A stretch of DNA of 64,000 nt from contig DS990592.1 of assembly GCA_000155695.1 (NCBI GenBank), positions 310,001 through 374,000 on the forward strand, read 5' to 3'. The first letter of the stretch is position 1. Each line of letters begins with the position of its first letter. This DNA comes from Verrucomicrobiia bacterium DG1235 (lineage in GTDB: Bacteria > Verrucomicrobiota > Verrucomicrobiia > Opitutales > Opitutaceae). Under the pieces are notes generated by a model, which saw only the letters and a program-made list of their open reading frames with translations, did not search any database and had not been told where the DNA came from. The position numbers were made by a program, and so were the translations under genes. Below are positions 11,099-17,919 of the stretch, piece by piece.

Positions 11099-13282
11099 AT
11101 GAAAACAGTAGATTTCTCGACCCTTGCCTACAAGGCTGACGAAACTGAGGCTAAACCCGATAATTGGGAAAAGTCATTCGAATCTGAGTACGGTAAGAAG
11201 CCGAAAGAAAGCAGTCACGAGACGATGGAGCGGATTCCCGTTAAGCCACTGTATACGAAAGTGGACTACGAGGGGATGAACCATCTAGGGTTCACGGCAG
11301 GTTTGGCTCCGTTTCTTCGGGGGCCTTACGCTACCATGTATGTGTTTCGTCCGTGGACGGTTCGCCAGTATGCAGGCTTTTCGACAGCGGAAGAGTCAAA
11401 CGCCTTCTACCGCAGAAACATCGCGGCGGGTCAGCAAGGACTTTCCGTCGCCTTCGACTTAGCGACACACCGCGGTTACGATAGCGATCATCCACGTGTT
11501 TCGGGCGATGTGGGCAAGGCCGGTGTCGCGATCGACTCGGTGGAAGACATGAAGATTCTCTTCGATAGCATTCCGCTCGATCAGGTTTCGGTTTCTATGA
11601 CTATGAACGGCGCGGTTGTTCCGGTGCTGGCGTTCTACATCGCCGCAGCGCTTGAGCAGGGCTGTACGCTTGATCAGCTTAGTGGCACGATTCAGAACGA
11701 TATTCTGAAGGAGTTCATGGTTCGTAACACCTATATTTATCCGCCGGCTCCGAGTATGAAGATCATTGGCGATATCTTCGAGTTTACCTCGCAGAAGATG
11801 CCGCGTTTCAACTCCATCTCCATTTCTGGCTACCACATGCAGGAAGCAGGGGCTACGGCTGACCTCGAAATGGGCTACACGCTTGCCGACGGATTGGAGT
11901 ACTTGCGCAAGGGCGTGGATGCTGGACTCGATATCGACAGTTTTGCGCCTCGTCTTTCCTTCTTCTGGGCGATCGGCAAGAACTTCTTCATGGAAGTCGC
12001 CAAGATGCGGGCAGCTCGTCTGCTTTGGGCGAAGATCGTCAAGCAGTTCGATCCTAAGAACCCCAAGTCGCTGGCGCTGCGCACTCACTCGCAGACATCC
12101 GGCTGGTCGCTCACCGAGCAAGATCCGTTTAACAATGTCGCTCGTACCGCGATCGAGGCATTGGCGGCGGCTTGCGGGCATACCCAAAGTTTGCATACAA
12201 ATGCTTTGGATGAAGCGATTGCTTTGCCGACTGACTTCTCTGCGCGTATCGCTCGTAATACTCAGCTCTTCCTCCAAGAGGAAACGGGTATTTGCGATGT
12301 GATCGATCCATGGGGCGGCAGTTACTACGTCGAGTCCTTGACCAAGGAATTGATGGAAAAAGCCTGGGCTCACATCGAGGAAATCGAATCTCTTGGTGGC
12401 ATGACAAAGGCCATCGAGGAAGGCATTCCAAAGCTCCGTATCGAAGAGGCTGCAGCTCGTCGTCAGGCTCGTATCGATAGCGGCGCGGAGACAATTGTGG
12501 GTCTGAACAAATTCCGCCTCGAGAAGGAGGATCCTCTTGAAATCCTCGATATCGATAATTCCGCGGTACGCGATTCGCAGATAAAGCGTCTTGAGGAGCT
12601 TCGCGCCAATCGTGATGCTGATAAGTGCAAGGCAGCGCTCGACGCTCTTGCCGCTTGCGCAGCGGGTGGCGAAGGCAATTTGCTCGGACTCGCCGTTGAA
12701 GCGGCTCAAGCTCGCGCCTCTCTCGGAGAGATCTCCGACGCGATGGAAGCAACTTTCGGTCGCTACAAGGCTCAAATTCGCTCCATCTCTGGGGTGTATG
12801 CTAAGGAATTTGGAACCGGTGCTAAAATGAGTGAAGTAAACGAACTCGTTAAGAAATTCGAAAAGCTAGAAGGTCGCCGTCCCCGTATCATGGTGGCGAA
12901 GCTCGGCCAGGACGGACACGATCGCGGCGCGAAAGTGGTTTCAACCGCTTACGCGGATCTTGGTTTCGATGTGGATATCGGTCCACTCTTCCAAACTCCA
13001 GAGGAAGCGGCTCGTCAGGCTGTGGAAAACGACGTGCACATCCTGGCGATGAGCTCTTTGGCTGCAGGTCACAAGACTCTGCTTCCAATGCTGGTTGAAG
13101 CTCTCAAATCGCATGGCCGTGAAGATATCATGGTTGTATGTGGCGGAGTGATCCCTGCGCAGGACTACGACTATCTCTACGAAAATGGCGCGAGCGCGAT
13201 CTTCGGTCCGGGGACAATTATTCCGGAGTCTGCAAAGCAAATGCTGGAGACTTTGATCAAGACGCTCGAAGAGGACGCATGA
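11099..13282 (+). CDS. mutB: Methylmalonyl-CoA mutase, large (alpha) subunit
   Basis: Catalytic, adenosylcobalamin-dependent subunit. The substrate barrel shows [25 protein letters not shown] and FIEL-equivalent features, with the standard 727-residue length. The C-terminal cobalamin domain carries Asp605-Gly-His607-Asp-Arg-Gly, where His607 is the lower-axial cobalt ligand, followed by MSSLAAG and VVCGG. Its stop overlaps the meaB start as ATGA, so mutA-mutB-meaB is one transcript. Confidence 0.97.
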
Positions 13283-14382
13283 GCGATCAGGGTAAGACCC
13301 GTCCTCCAGAGTGGCATCCTAGCGACGCCGACAAATCTAAGTTCGCGGGCGAGGTGATGGCTGGAAAAGTCGAAGCCTCGCCCGCGATAAAGGTTGTGCG
13401 AAAGCCGCGGCGGCGTCCGCTCAATGTGGACGAGCTCTACGAAGGGATTCTTCGGGGAGATCGCACCGCTTTGGCTCGTGGAATCACTTGCGTGGAAAGT
13501 GAAGCGTCGCGACATAGGGTGATCGCTCGCGAGCTCTTGCGACGTTGTCTGCCGCATTCTGGCAACTCGATTCGTATCGGCATCACCGGCGTCCCAGGCG
13601 CTGGCAAGAGCCAGTTTCTCGAATGTATCGGGAAACTGCTTTGCGACGCGGATGAGCGAGTTGCGGTGTTGGCGGTCGATCCGAGTAGCTCGGTGACGGG
13701 TGGAAGTATCCTCGGCGACAAGACTCGAATGGAAAATCTCTGTCGGGATATTCGGGCGTTTATCCGTCCGTCGCCCGCGGGCAGTACGCTCGGAGGGGTT
13801 GCGGCAAAGACGCGCGAATCGATCATCCTGTGTGAAGCAGCTGGATACAAAGTGATCTTTGTCGAGACGGTGGGCGTTGGCCAAAGCGAGGTAGCGGTCC
13901 GCTCCATGGTGGACTTTTTCCTCTTGCTTCAGCTCGCCGGAGCGGGAGATGAATTGCAGGGAATCAAGAAGGGCGTGATCGAGATGGCGGACGCTATTGT
14001 GGTTAACAAGTCAGACGGAGACAACGTGCGTCGAACCCAAATCGCTCGGGGGGAGTACGCTCGCGTATTGCACCATTTGCATCCTTTTACGGAAGGCTGG
14101 GAGCCTAAGGCTCTTTGCTGCTCGGGCTTGAAAGGCACCGGCGTATGGGAGATTTGGGAGATGGTGCAAGAGTTCTGCTTGAAATTGAAAGCGGAGAATC
14201 GTTTCGAAAGTATTCGCTCCAAGCAAAATGCGAAGTGGTTCCGCACGCTGATCGAGCAACGCTTGTTGGATAGTTTTTACCGGACTCAAGGCGTTGACAG
14301 CAAATTCGCGCGTCTCGAATCAGGTGTATCCGAAGGTAGGATACCGGTAGTGGAAGCGGTCGACGAATTGTTGAGCGAGTAG
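13279..14382 (+). CDS. meaB: Methylmalonyl-CoA mutase-associated GTPase MeaB/ArgK
   Basis: G3E-family GTPase that protects methylmalonyl-CoA mutase and loads cofactor into it. P-loop GVPGAGKS is at 104-111; [30 protein letters not shown] and the NKxD-type VNKSDGD are all present. The start is the ATG overlapping the mutB stop; the upstream open frame is a shadow of mutB. The protein is 367 residues with an N-terminal arm of about 45 residues ([20 protein letters not shown]) common in relatives. A decayed copy of the last ~160 bases of this gene lies 2.3 kb downstream, next to hemH. Confidence 0.95.
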
Positions 14383-14407
14383 AGGGCTTGATTATTCTGC
14401 AGGGCCT

Positions 14408-15505
14408 TTATAGTTCGGCGATGGCTTTTGCTATTTTGCTAGAGTGGGCCAGCCAAAGGTAGCCATTGGGACCGTTGCTGTCGACGCGTAGCTCGAGGGA
14501 ATTGTATCCGCGATTCAAAGTCGCAATGCAGACACTCTCCCCGCGTTCCTTCTCGCGGAACTCGATCGCTGGAACTGGATTTTGGTTCACCCAAAGTCGG
14601 GCGTTGTCTGTGCTCCTCAGGCAGAGTACCACTTCCTGCTCTTCCGCTGCGAAGAGTTCGCTGTATAAGAAGTAGGTTTGCTGCTCTTCGTTTTTCGAAA
14701 GAGCGAGAGCTGGTCCGTCGCATATTTCGTATTCCCAATAAACATTGGCCTTTCCGCGGATTGGAAGATCTAGGTCTAAATCGAAATCTATTCTGTTTTC
14801 TGATTCTGGAGCTTGTCCTTTGGCGATGGGCCCAAGAACGTACCAGGAATTTATGTACGACCAAGCGTCTGTCTCGTTTTCGATCTCTAGAAACCGTGAG
14901 CCGGACATTGATTCGATGCGTAGCGTATCGATTAGATTCATGCCGCTTGTGCCACGTGATTGTGACTCGTTATTGACGATTTGCAGATCTCGTTTCGTTT
15001 CACGGTTCGTTTGAGAGACGGCAGTGTTGAGTGAATTCGCCGCAATTCTCGACTCTGTTGCCATCATTTCAATTTCTGAGACCAGTTTTGGGCGATCACC
15101 GTGTTGAGCGATTTTCATGATCCGATCCTGTTCTCTCGAAGCCGACCGTGCTGCGAGCGATCGCACATTGTTCGATTCACGTGACTTATAGTCTGTGAGT
15201 CGTGTAATCTCTTTTCGAAGCGTGAGAGCGCGTTTCGCGATTTCACTGTCGGGAAGCTTCGTCATTTCCTCGTAGGAAATCGCCAACTTGCGTTGATTGG
15301 CTGACTTGCCGGAAAGCAATTGCTCTGCTTTCGCCATAGAGTTTAGGGCAACCGCTAGTTTGATTGTCTCTCTTCGAATTGTATTTGAATTTTCGTTACG
15401 ACTTTGTTTGAACTCTATATCGCCGAAGAAGAAGGGAGTACACATCCAAATACCTAGGAGATGGACGAGAAATGAAAGCGCTAGATACTTGCCTCGCTTA
15501 CTCAT
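14408..15505 (-). CDS. TonB-like membrane-anchored periplasmic protein with a jelly-roll-type C-terminus
   Basis: No named family recognised. One N-terminal membrane segment (about 7-28) contains Ser11-x3-His15, the same spacing as the proton-coupling SxxxH of TonB/TolA. A charged, probably helical stretch at about 35-195 replaces the Pro-rich TonB spacer. Residues about 215-360 resemble the beta-sandwich modules of planctomycete and verrucomicrobial surface proteins: SWYVLGPIAKG (220-230), a long acidic strand region, STDNARLWVNQNPV (298-311) and LNRGYNSLELRVDSNG. It overlaps the exbD stop by 4 bases in an exbB-exbD-this operon, so it occupies the TonB position without a TonB C-terminal domain. 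Confidence 0.75.
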   Translation of the reverse strand: MSKRGKYLALSFLVHLLGIWMCTPFFFGDIEFKQSRNENSNTIRRETIKLAVALNSMAKAEQLLSGKSANQRKLAISYEEMTKLPDSEIAKRALTLRKEITRLTDYKSRESNNVRSLAARSASREQDRIMKIAQHGDRPKLVSEIEMMATESRIAANSLNTAVSQTNRETKRDLQIVNNESQSRGTSGMNLIDTLRIESMSGSRFLEIENETDAWSYINSWYVLGPIAKGQAPESENRIDFDLDLDLPIRGKANVYWEYEICDGPALALSKNEEQQTYFLYSELFAAEEQEVVLCLRSTDNARLWVNQNPVPAIEFREKERGESVCIATLNRGYNSLELRVDSNGPNGYLWLAHSSKIAKAIAEL

Positions 15506-15927
15506 TCGCCTCGCTCAACTTTGACTGATACATTTGTAAGGCCAAGCAGGTGGCATAGATTCATCACTTCGGCTATTTGTTCGAATGCCGCTAGTCGGTC
15601 TCCGGCCAGTACTATTTTCCGCTCTGGATTCACCGCTGCGTCCTTTCGTAATATGCGGTGCAGGTCCACGAGGCCGCATTCTATCTTGTTGAGAAAATAC
15701 TGTCCGCGTCGATCGACCGAAATGGTGAGTGCCTTTGTTTGCTGTTCTTGTGACGATTGTTCGTAGCCAGCGACTCGCGGCACATTCAATGGAATATCTA
15801 GGTGTTCCGTTCGATCCAATTTAAAGGTCGTCGTGACCATGAAGAATATCAGCAATAGGAAAATGCAATCGAGTAGCGGCGCTAGGTCGATAGATCGTTC
15901 CTCACTATCGTCAGTATTGATCTGCAT
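15502..15927 (-). CDS. exbD: ExbD/TolR family biopolymer transport protein
   Basis: Inner-membrane partner of ExbB in a proton-motive-force-driven motor. The protein has 141 residues with one membrane helix at about 15-36. The essential aspartate is Asp19 in APLLDCIFLLLIFFMVTTTF. The periplasmic part (ALTISVDRRGQYFLN; RKIVLAGDRLA; VSVKVE) is a normal ExbD domain. It follows exbB by five bases and overlaps the TonB-like gene. Confidence 0.93.
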   Translation of the reverse strand: MQINTDDSEERSIDLAPLLDCIFLLLIFFMVTTTFKLDRTEHLDIPLNVPRVAGYEQSSQEQQTKALTISVDRRGQYFLNKIECGLVDLHRILRKDAAVNPERKIVLAGDRLAAFEQIAEVMNLCHLLGLTNVSVKVERGE

Positions 15928-15932
15928 CGGAC

Positions 15933-16577
15933 CTAATGTTTGTCGGATTCGTTAATTGGCGTATCGAGTAGCCAATCGTAAAGTACAGTATTCGAATTGT
16001 CTTCGATTACGCTGCTAAAACGACTGAGTCTGTTCTTAAAATAGTGATAGAACGCGAGAGTTGGAATGCCAACGATGAGACCTGCTGCTGTAGTTACCAA
16101 AGCTTGCGAGATTCCGTCCGCTACAATTGTCGCATCCCCGGAAACGCCAGTTATCACGATCATTCGAAACGAAGTAATCATTCCGGCCACGGTTCCGAAT
16201 AGGCCTATGAGTGGACTGAGCGTAGCGATTATATTAAGTGGGTATATGCGTTGTAGCTCTCGCTTCATCGCTGAGCTCGCCGTATTTGAAGCGATCATGG
16301 AAACTCGATCGAAGGGCTTGCTTCTGTGTTTTATTATCGAGGAAAGTACGCGACTCATCACGCAGTTTCGACCTTCTGCAAGTTTCGCCAGCTCCTCGAA
16401 TTGGGCCGCTTCCCATAGGTTTTTTGAGCGTTCCATTAGGTTGCTTGAAACCAGTCGTTCACTCCTCAAGCATTTGATTCTCTCGAAGGCGATAGCTAGG
16501 CCGACTAAGGATAGGGCAGCGAGGGTATACATTATAAAGCCTCCCGCATGGAAGGCGTTTAGGAATGAACTAAACAT
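15933..16577 (-). CDS. exbB: ExbB/TolQ/MotA family proton channel protein
   Basis: Forms the proton-conducting pentamer with ExbD. It has 214 residues: one membrane segment near the N-terminus (13-30), a cytoplasmic helical region, and two more helices in the conserved block LNIIATLSPLIGLFGTVAGM ... ISQALVTTAAGLIVGIPTLAFY. It is the first gene of a three-gene minus-strand operon. Directly upstream are a -35-like TTGACT and a 16-bp palindrome, so the operon looks regulated. Confidence 0.93.
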   Translation of the reverse strand: MFSSFLNAFHAGGFIMYTLAALSLVGLAIAFERIKCLRSERLVSSNLMERSKNLWEAAQFEELAKLAEGRNCVMSRVLSSIIKHRSKPFDRVSMIASNTASSAMKRELQRIYPLNIIATLSPLIGLFGTVAGMITSFRMIVITGVSGDATIVADGISQALVTTAAGLIVGIPTLAFYHYFKNRLSRFSSVIEDNSNTVLYDWLLDTPINESDKH

Positions 16578-16650: not shown

Positions 16651-16730
16651 CTATGAGTATTGAGTCAACCTTTTAACTTAGGCAGATTTTCTACGGCTCC
16701 GTCTGGGAAAAGTCGATCGCTTGCCATTCC

Positions 16731-16893
16731 AGACGAAACGCGAAGTGGTTCCGCATGCTAGCCAAGCAAGGCATGTTAGATGGCCCTGCCGGAATTGCTC
16801 TGCCAGTAGTAGAATGCGAGACGTACGAAAAAACGGTATTCGTAATAAGAATACCGTTTCGTGGAAGCGTTGGCTAACAGTTGAGCGAGTAGG
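16731..16893 (+). pseudogene. Decayed second copy of the meaB 3' end
   Basis: From 16739 the sequence repeats meaB from about 14229: GCGAAGTGGTTCCGCA is identical, and roughly 35 of 44 bases match. In frame it reads N-A-K-W-F-R-M-L-A-K-Q-G-M-L-D-G against mea[17 protein letters not shown]. After an internal deletion the PVVE segment reappears (16808-16820). GTGGAAGCG and TTGAGCGAGTAG, the very end of meaB, recur at 16861-16869 and 16881-16892. The copy has no start, is interrupted by a hairpin and ends against the hemH stop. Confidence 0.8.
16825..16860 (-). terminator. Rho-independent terminator of hemH
   Basis: A perfect 11-bp stem (16831-16841 with 16849-16859) with a seven-base loop. Read on the minus strand it is followed by six T in total. 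It lies 37 bases past the hemH stop and sits inside the meaB remnant. Confidence 0.75.
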
Positions 16894-16896
16894 GCG

Positions 16897-17919
16897 CTAT
16901 TTCGTATTTACCCAGTCGTTGGTTTTATCGACGAGGTACTGAATCCAGGCCGGGTGTTCATTCATGCAGGGGACGGCGCTAAACTTTTCGCCGCCGGCTT
17001 CGAGAAACTCTTCTTTTCCTTCCATGGCGATTTCTTCGAGGGTTTCGAGACAGTCGGAGACGAAGGCCGGAGTCATGACGACGAGGCGGTTCTTGCCTTG
17101 TTGTGGTAACTCTTCGAGAACTTTGTCCGTATAGGGCATGAGCCAGGGTTCGCGTCCGAGTCGCGACTGGAAAGAGATTGACCACTTGTCGTCTGGGATG
17201 CCGGCGCGTTTTACGAAGAGCTCGGTGGTTTTGGTGACTTGGTGACGGTAGCAGGTGGCGTGGGCGGGGCTGCAGGTCGTGCAGCAATCTTTCACGACGT
17301 TGCAGTGGCCCTTAGAGGAATCGGCTTTGTTGAGATGGCGGTTTGGAATGCCGTGGTAGGAGAAGAGAAGGTGATCGTATTCATCTTCCAAGTACGGTTT
17401 GGCGCTTTGATAAAGGGCTTCGATGTAGGCTTCCTCGCTATAGAAGGGTTGCAGGGTAGTGACCTTCATCTCTGGAGCTCGCTCGGCGACTTCCTCCATG
17501 ACCTTGACGACGACTGTCTCGTAGCTAGACATGGCGTAGTGCGGGTAGAGCGGCACGAGGTAGACATTTGTGATCCCGTTTCCCTTCATTCGCTCGATGG
17601 CGTCTGGAATAGAGGGCGATCCGTAGCGCATGGCGAGCTCGACGGTCGGCTCGACTTTGGCCTGTACGAGCTTTTGGAGATTCTTGCTAGTGACGATGAG
17701 TGGGGAGCCTTCGTCGGTCCAAACCTTCTCGTATGCTTCGCCCGAGCGTTTCGGGCGAGTGGGTAGGATGAAGCAGTTCAGGACGAATTGCTGGAGCGGT
17801 TTCCAGGTGTCGAGGACGCGGTCGTCCGAAAGAAACTCCCTGAGATAACGGCGAACGTCCGGAGTGGAGGTCGAGTCTGGCGATCCAAGGTTTACGAGAA
17901 GTACTGCGTTTTCACTCAT
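16897..17919 (-). CDS. hemH: Ferrochelatase, probably iron-sulfur type
   Basis: Inserts Fe2+ into protoporphyrin IX (or coproporphyrin) in haem synthesis. It has 340 residues with VLLVNLGSPDS at the N-terminus, catalytic His189 in FSYHGIPNRH and Glu292 in SDCLETLEEI. Between the catalytic histidine and the next conserved helix there are five cysteines (206, 212, 213, 216, 223) in a segment about 12-15 residues longer than in E. coli HemH, suggesting a [2Fe-2S] cluster as reported for some bacterial ferrochelatases. The gene is convergent with the meaB remnant and followed by its own terminator. Confidence 0.95.
   Translation of the reverse strand: MSENAVLLVNLGSPDSTSTPDVRRYLREFLSDDRVLDTWKPLQQFVLNCFILPTRPKRSGEAYEKVWTDEGSPLIVTSKNLQKLVQAKVEPTVELAMRYGSPSIPDAIERMKGNGITNVYLVPLYPHYAMSSYETVVVKVMEEVAERAPEMKVTTLQPFYSEEAYIEALYQSAKPYLEDEYDHLLFSYHGIPNRHLNKADSSKGHCNVVKDCCTTCSPAHATCYRHQVTKTTELFVKRAGIPDDKWSISFQSRLGREPWLMPYTDKVLEELPQQGKNRLVVMTPAFVSDCLETLEEIAMEGKEEFLEAGGEKFSAVPCMNEHPAWIQYLVDKTNDWVNTK

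Follow-up and report, generated by a model that had tools for sequence, protein, structure and literature searches.

Motors of the ExbBD type drive TonB and TolA. The anchors of both proteins carry a Ser-x3-His motif that docks on the motor rim, and the accessible part of the source gives the SHLS motif as Ser-3X-His-6X-Leu-3X-Ser (PMC12905483). Motor-driven transducers with TonB/TolA-like arms that end in a vWA domain were published in 2025; in the available excerpts of that paper, the cases from PVC bacteria often have a TPR gene upstream (PMC12204202).

Here we analyse an operon in a stretch of 64,000 nucleotides from Verrucomicrobiia bacterium DG1235 (hereafter the window). We read it, with a probability of roughly 0.6, as encoding a proton-driven ExbB–ExbD motor with a non-TonB arm and a PA14/CBM-like tip, a recurrent and mainly PVC module that was acquired laterally in this genome.

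The operon and the predicted structure of its third protein

On the minus strand of the window, exbB, exbD and a third gene follow one another from 16577 to 14408 with all three frames open, and 4 bp are shared by the end of exbD and the start of the third gene (Table 1). The product of exbB matches PF01618 (MotA_ExbB) at E 9.6e-25 (87.2 bits, cut-off 22.9) and that of exbD matches PF02472 (ExbD) at E 6.9e-25 (88 bits, cut-off 25.4), which gives Pfam support to both motor genes of the three-gene operon proposed in a first-pass annotation. With the NCBIfam models, the window ExbB scored higher against tolQ (80 bits, cut-off 221) than against exbB (60 bits, cut-off 206), both values lying far under their cut-offs. 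The ExbB motifs GLFGT (residues 125–129) and LVTTAAGL (residues 160–167) are intact, and ExbD has PLLD20 within its membrane helix; we take the Thr-bearing ExbB motifs and the membrane Asp of ExbD to be the key motor motifs. The same genome has 19 MotA_ExbB places. Five of its loci (L218–L222) hold MotA_ExbB pairs, in which an ExbB of 450–470 aa is followed by a second, short one. TonB_C is found elsewhere in the genome at 29 places (28 above cut-off) and the Plug domain at 45; with this conventional equipment present, the jelly-roll motor is an addition rather than a replacement.

Table 1. Positions of the operon, the parts of its third protein and the neighbouring decayed repeat in the window
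Feature	Position	Strand	Remarks
exbB/tolQ-like gene	15933..16577	minus	214 aa; ORF list and Pfam
exbD/tolR-like gene	15502..15927	minus	141 aa; ORF list and Pfam
Third gene	14408..15505	minus	365 aa; membrane anchor, helical stalk and jelly-roll tip
Predicted membrane helix, residues 8–26, with Ser11-x3-His15	15428..15484	minus	
Predicted helical stalk, residues 27–183	14957..15427	minus	AlphaFold2
Beta-sandwich (jelly-roll) domain, residues 203–354	14444..14899	minus	AlphaFold2 and fold searches
Residues 299–300 of the tip, Thr-Asp in the window copy	14606..14611	minus	Family alignment
Decayed copy of the 3' end of gene 13138–14382	16700..16898	plus	Flanks the insert; other copy 14200–14388

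Searches with the third protein gave no match in Pfam (E ≤ 10) or NCBIfam (E ≤ 1). Its residues 11 and 15 are the Ser and His of a TonB-type anchor, as annotated; Cys22 and Phe26 stand at the Leu and Ser places of the SHLS motif, so the protein keeps half of that motif and not the whole. The AlphaFold2 model (42 sequences, mean pLDDT 74.4, pTM 0.47) has helices at residues 4–65, 78–83, 86–134 and 140–183, a low-confidence link at 181–201 and eleven strands of at least three residues each from 203 to 354, followed by a closing helix; pLDDT per 10-residue block of the tip ranges from 56 to 94. The first-pass annotation had described a coiled stretch and a jelly-roll-type C terminus without a TonB domain: the prediction agrees, with helices through residue 183 and then a sandwich, and it gave no TonB-type fold. 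The membrane anchor implies that the rest of the protein is periplasmic.

Compared with the PDB by Foldseek, the model matched 26 chains at E ≤ 0.001. The top match for the tip is the GH3 beta-glucosidase 3abz (E 1.3e-5), in the region that is presumably its PA14 domain; PA14-type adhesins, CBM35, CBM6 and an anti-sigma-factor domain come next, and the toxin component that gave the PA14 domain its name is also found, having only the fold in common. VIA-align likewise placed 3abz_B first (Z 9.7, rmsd 2.9, 118 aligned), with sugar-binding-type domains of GH2 enzymes at Z of about 9; these matches span residues 207–362, and identity across the listed VIA-align matches is 6–18%. The best 50 matches of each method are almost all PA14, CBM, GH2/GH31 and other sugar-related jelly-rolls. 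No TonB-type chain is among these 50 Foldseek and 50 VIA-align matches, although the absence of a fold family from the VIA-align list carries no evidential weight. The same PA14/CBM/GH2-type folds were matched by the model of a 723-aa relative (L070), in which a membrane helix (7–30) and a small hairpin (39–59) are followed by helices to 259, a disordered link, further helices (340–478) and a sandwich (570–717). We therefore describe the tip as a predicted jelly-roll, or galactose-binding-type, sandwich, a fold match between models and structures rather than proof of homology. In GH2 enzymes a domain with this fold may play a structural part, and the sugar binding that the fold suggests for the tip is not proved by a common fold.

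Pfam families of the PA14/CBM kind were absent from the window protein and, above cut-off, from the proteins of ten relatives (eight with the tip); one relative (L045) has a weak match to BetaGal_gal-bd (E 0.08, 13.5 bits, cut-off 27.3). A PDB search with a tip profile gave no solid relative: its best rows are designed propellers and a quinoprotein, with E from 3.1e-8 and no single stretch that passes alone, and a sialic acid 9-O-acetylesterase appears at E 0.091. A full-length profile brought up coiled coils of many kinds, TolA included at E 0.014, and the helical stalk of one separately encoded tip protein (L057) reached 21.6 bits against the full TolA model (cut-off 59.45). We read both results as composition; kinship of the stalk with TolA is possible.

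An Asp-Asp pair is a motif of PA14 lectins. In the family alignment, tip residue 300 is Asp in 42 of 42 members, and residue 299 is Asp in the other 41 of the 42 and Thr in the window; an Asn conserved in all 41 others is likewise replaced in the window, by Ser343, with Asn344 adjoining. Given these two changes, other members represent the family better than the window copy does.

Linkage to exbB and exbD across genomes

A search with the window protein in 387 genomes of the phylum, with up to five candidates scored per genome, found matches in 25 genomes (its own included), at no fewer than 34 places outside the window. The surroundings of 30 places (28 loci) were read more widely and those of the other four from 1.5-kb flanks; exbB and/or exbD adjoin 32 of the 34, the exceptions being L059, which is cut by a contig end, and L065. 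Scanning genome contigs with the single protein gave no relative, and a tip profile gave 291. In the best 80 of these 291, read with flanks of up to 7 kb, exbB and exbD are both present in 71 loci; three further loci have exbD on a contig that ends before exbB could be read, five start at a contig end, and one (L142) has a readable upstream region with a TonB-like anchor gene and no motor genes. The two counts overlap partly in their genomes and are thus not independent. As a rough yardstick, the ExbB density of the DG1235 genome predicts an ExbB by chance in about 5% of 14.5-kb stretches, and the linkage (71 of the best 80; 32 of 34) rules out a chance neighbour. The gene order of the window is therefore one that recurs in other genomes.

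By their titles, 59 of the best 80 records belong to PVC bacteria (21 Verrucomicrobiota, 19 Lentisphaerae, 5 Kiritimatiellae and 14 Planctomycetes), 13 name no phylum and 8 name other phyla. All eight of the last are metagenome-assembled, so misbinning is possible.

The linkage belongs to a subfamily. When the 387 genomes were searched with the tip profile (E ≤ 1e-15, up to ten candidates scored per genome), at least 43 places in 29 genomes scored 120 bits or more, at least 13 scored 85 bits or less, and none fell between. Six of the nine newly found high-scoring places were checked: four (L225–L228) have exbB and exbD, one (L230) has exbD at a contig end, and one (L224) has neither. The one low-scoring place of this search that was checked (L229) has neither gene, nor does any of 14 low-scoring tip places in 57 near relatives, read with flanks of about 1.5 kb or less. 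The fold is thus common, and the motor-linked subfamily is separate within it, with single exceptions (L142, L224 and L065 have the tip and no motor genes within the stretch read). The earlier expectation that homologues would be tied to exbB/exbD holds for the close subfamily and fails for the fold at large. Proteins of about 390–400 aa at L152, L154 and L229 form a separate group, with a repeat-like N-terminal part, the same sandwich and no motor genes in the stretch.

Most often the genes are arranged as exbB-exbD-exbD-arm or exbB-exbD-arm, and rumen Lentisphaerae have exbD-arm-exbB-exbD. In the loci with this last order (L093, L095 and L099–L106, from Lentisphaerae and other rumen records), the arm measures about 950 aa. 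Several loci (L057, L061, L064, L135, L139 and L142) encode anchor and tip in two genes. There, the anchor protein (300–443 aa) has a membrane helix, and the tip protein (502–629 aa) has a start that by eye resembles a signal peptide, a stalk and the sandwich, with no other hydrophobic stretch above threshold. A separate tip protein with such a start argues for a periplasmic tip. The output at the cell surface that had been proposed for the arm finds no support in the anchor and split-tip sequences.

A clear membrane helix is present in 68 of the 74 arms or anchors that are uncut by a contig end, and S-x3-H lies within the helix in 26 of them (in 6 of the 74, a separate or frame-split gene upstream was taken as the anchor). 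The motif is unevenly distributed: 18 of 24 loci with one exbD have it, versus 5 of 46 with two (Fisher p 1e-7, which is not a true probability because the sequences are related). This comparison covers those 70 of the 80 loci in which both motor genes are present and the arm could be read. The window operon is of the kind with one exbD and S-x3-H.

A quick maximum-likelihood tree was built from 94 ExbBs. In it, the window ExbB groups with those of other jelly-roll operons (23 sequences, support 84), of which 20 come from one-exbD and one from two-exbD operons; the remaining two are the window ExbB itself and that of a same-genus relative, G003. Fifteen of the 16 other ExbBs used from the DG1235 genome fall in another group (17 sequences, support 99), where long branches meet among the own-genome sequences and which also contains two one-exbD jelly-roll sequences from Armatimonadota bins. 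Two of the 18 other own-genome places are not in the tree and, the window and G003 loci aside, all but four of L040–L068 were dropped as duplicates. The grouping suggests that motor and tip travel together.

When 447 neighbouring genes were clustered by sequence, the widest clusters spanned 11, 9 and 5 loci, with 7 of 15, 0 of 10 and 5 of 5 genes, respectively, on the operon strand; the 9- and 5-locus clusters come from rumen loci only. A constant further partner gene was not found by this clustering, which fast-evolving partners could escape.

Origin of the window copy

Of seven same-genus relatives, G003 alone has the third gene or an exbB close to that of the window (66%). That copy is wrecked: its exbB continues through the initial residues of exbD and passes from there into the third gene's stalk, the anchor is missing and exbD almost entirely so, and an in-frame stop comes after. 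It lies (L010/L060) in a different genomic place from that of the window operon. Both flanking genes could be located in four same-genus genomes (G001, G002, G003 and G007; the second flanking gene of G002 is 37% identical), and in all four they are adjacent, with no operon between them. By their look, we take them to be a meaB-type GTPase and hemH. In the window they are about 2.5 kb apart, and the GC content of the interval is 0.476 versus 0.543 and 0.549 in its flanks. The insert is bordered by a direct repeat (14200–14388 versus 16700–16898; score 117, maximum of 61 in 300 shuffles), 54 nt of which align at 78%. The decayed copy contains an inverted repeat (16831–16859; 14-nt arms, 93% complementary, 1 nt apart), which sits immediately beyond the end of gene 16897–17919 on the minus strand. 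From the empty sites, the lower GC content and the copied gene end, the window operon looks like a laterally acquired insert.

These observations would also fit a decaying passenger, acquired laterally and without present function in this genome, in a family that at large works as we propose. The empty site in four of four relatives, the decayed gene end beside an insert of deviating GC content, and above all the wrecked state of the only same-genus copy together with the change of Asp299 to Thr in the tip mean that the window copy may be decaying. Against this stand three open frames, the last two overlapping, intact motor motifs and the divergence of exbB from that of G003, with pN 0.22 versus pS 0.82 over 198 codons (synonymous sites being saturated), which indicates constraint on exbB during a large part of that divergence. 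We consider a functionless passenger unlikely, though it retains some weight.

Proposed mechanism and comparison with known systems

Most likely, the third protein is a force transducer of the TonB/TolA kind, its jelly-roll tip lying in the periplasm, an assignment in which the coupling to the motor and the target are inferred. Its Ser-His membrane helix would dock beside the ExbB ring, as the motif suggests; the predicted helical stalk would cross the periplasm and end in the predicted PA14/CBM-like jelly-roll; proton flow would pull or twist the arm; and the tip would grip a periplasmic partner, likeliest a glycan (peptidoglycan, for example) or an outer-membrane partner that bears sugar. 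A ligand in the wall or outer membrane is possible.

The arm might instead be a fixed anchor, whose jelly-roll grips the wall and holds the motor while some other part performs the work. MotB uses its wall-binding domain in this way to keep the flagellar stator in place, and the tip resembles carbohydrate-binding modules; S-x3-H of the TonB type, moreover, is absent from most two-exbD operons, which hints at a different coupling in these. The window operon, however, has S-x3-H, which docks on the rim in TonB and TolA according to the accessible text of PMC12905483, and beside the operons no further gene is constant, barring fast-evolving ones that escape clustering. We doubt that the arm is a fixed anchor. 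Somewhat less credible still is a sensor, in which the tip, on binding a periplasmic glycan, would gate the motor or send a signal into the cell. Polysaccharide sensing is a proposed role of PA14 domains in clostridial anti-sigma factors, and the domain from Clostridium clariflavum (6qdi) is among the Foldseek matches (E 1.0e-4); yet only 7 residues precede the membrane helix of the window anchor, too few for a signalling domain in the cytoplasm, although a linked regulator among the neighbouring genes is conceivable. An ordinary TonB with a C-terminal domain too divergent to be recognised, as the gene order and Ser-His anchor of a TonB operon might suggest, is ruled out by the fold and family searches, given the predicted eleven-strand sandwich with its PA14/CBM/GH2 matches, the lack of a TonB_C match in the window protein and in the ten relatives searched with Pfam, and the 29 TonB_C places that the genome has elsewhere.

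If the force-transducing arm is the right reading, a bolder version of it, which we offer as a speculation with rather poor odds, is that a lectin-like tip hauls glycan strands, either to pull on the wall or to draw imported polysaccharide across the periplasm, and that the whole is a distinct envelope machine of PVC bacteria. A hauling arm of this kind would supply the motor for loading polysaccharide into the periplasm ('selfish' uptake) in Verrucomicrobiota. For mucin-utilisation loci of Akkermansia, the key paper is reportedly that of Davey et al. (2023). Selfish polysaccharide uptake in Verrucomicrobiota is reported in the available part of PMC13174399; pili, periplasmic complexes and a Sus-like locus are named there and in the available part of PMC12418764, and the words ExbB and TonB are absent from these texts. 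That the Akkermansia mucin-utilisation loci are the same system as the jelly-roll motor is unproved.

Accompanied by a motor of its own in 71 of the best 80 loci, this further type of arm, whose tip resembles sugar-binding modules, suggests that the output end is a swappable part of such machines. The difference in anchor-motif frequency between one- and two-exbD operons bears on how arm and motor are coupled, and the module offers a testable envelope machine in Verrucomicrobia, Lentisphaerae, Kiritimatiellae and Planctomycetes.

By analogy, the module would work like TolA or TonB, yet it is a member of neither family. With TonB–ExbB–ExbD it shares the gene order and the Ser-His anchor, and it differs in that the third protein of the window has no TonB_C domain. 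With TolA it shares a single N-terminal membrane helix with S-x3-H, a long helical middle and a globular tip, the predicted helices to residue 183 resembling TolA domain II; the tip is a jelly-roll rather than the TolA C-terminal domain, and the window protein matches no TolA model in Pfam or NCBIfam. PA14, CBM35, CBM6 and GH2 domains are alike in fold, and the family has the Asp-Asp pair of PA14 lectins, the window copy departing from it at the first Asp. In open-licence papers, preprints aside, we found no description of a jelly-roll-tipped motor arm. The closest relatives in design are the vWA-tipped transducers, with which the comparison extends over the available part of PMC12204202. There, as here, an anchor (in many cases with SHLS) stands beside tolQ/tolR-like genes and bears a tip that is neither TonB nor TolA, and the two unlike tolR genes often seen in PVC bacteria recall our two-exbD operons. 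What had been proposed as a new output for the motor is therefore new in its jelly-roll tip and not in departing from TonB, since the vWA-tipped arms have the same kind of anchor. The tip is a vWA fold there, a domain that neither Pfam nor the predicted sandwich gives for the window protein, versus a PA14/CBM-like jelly-roll here, and the linker is proline-rich or disordered there versus largely helical in our predictions. The family is a real, recurrent and uncharacterised one, which follows the ExbBD arm logic of the vWA system with another tip.
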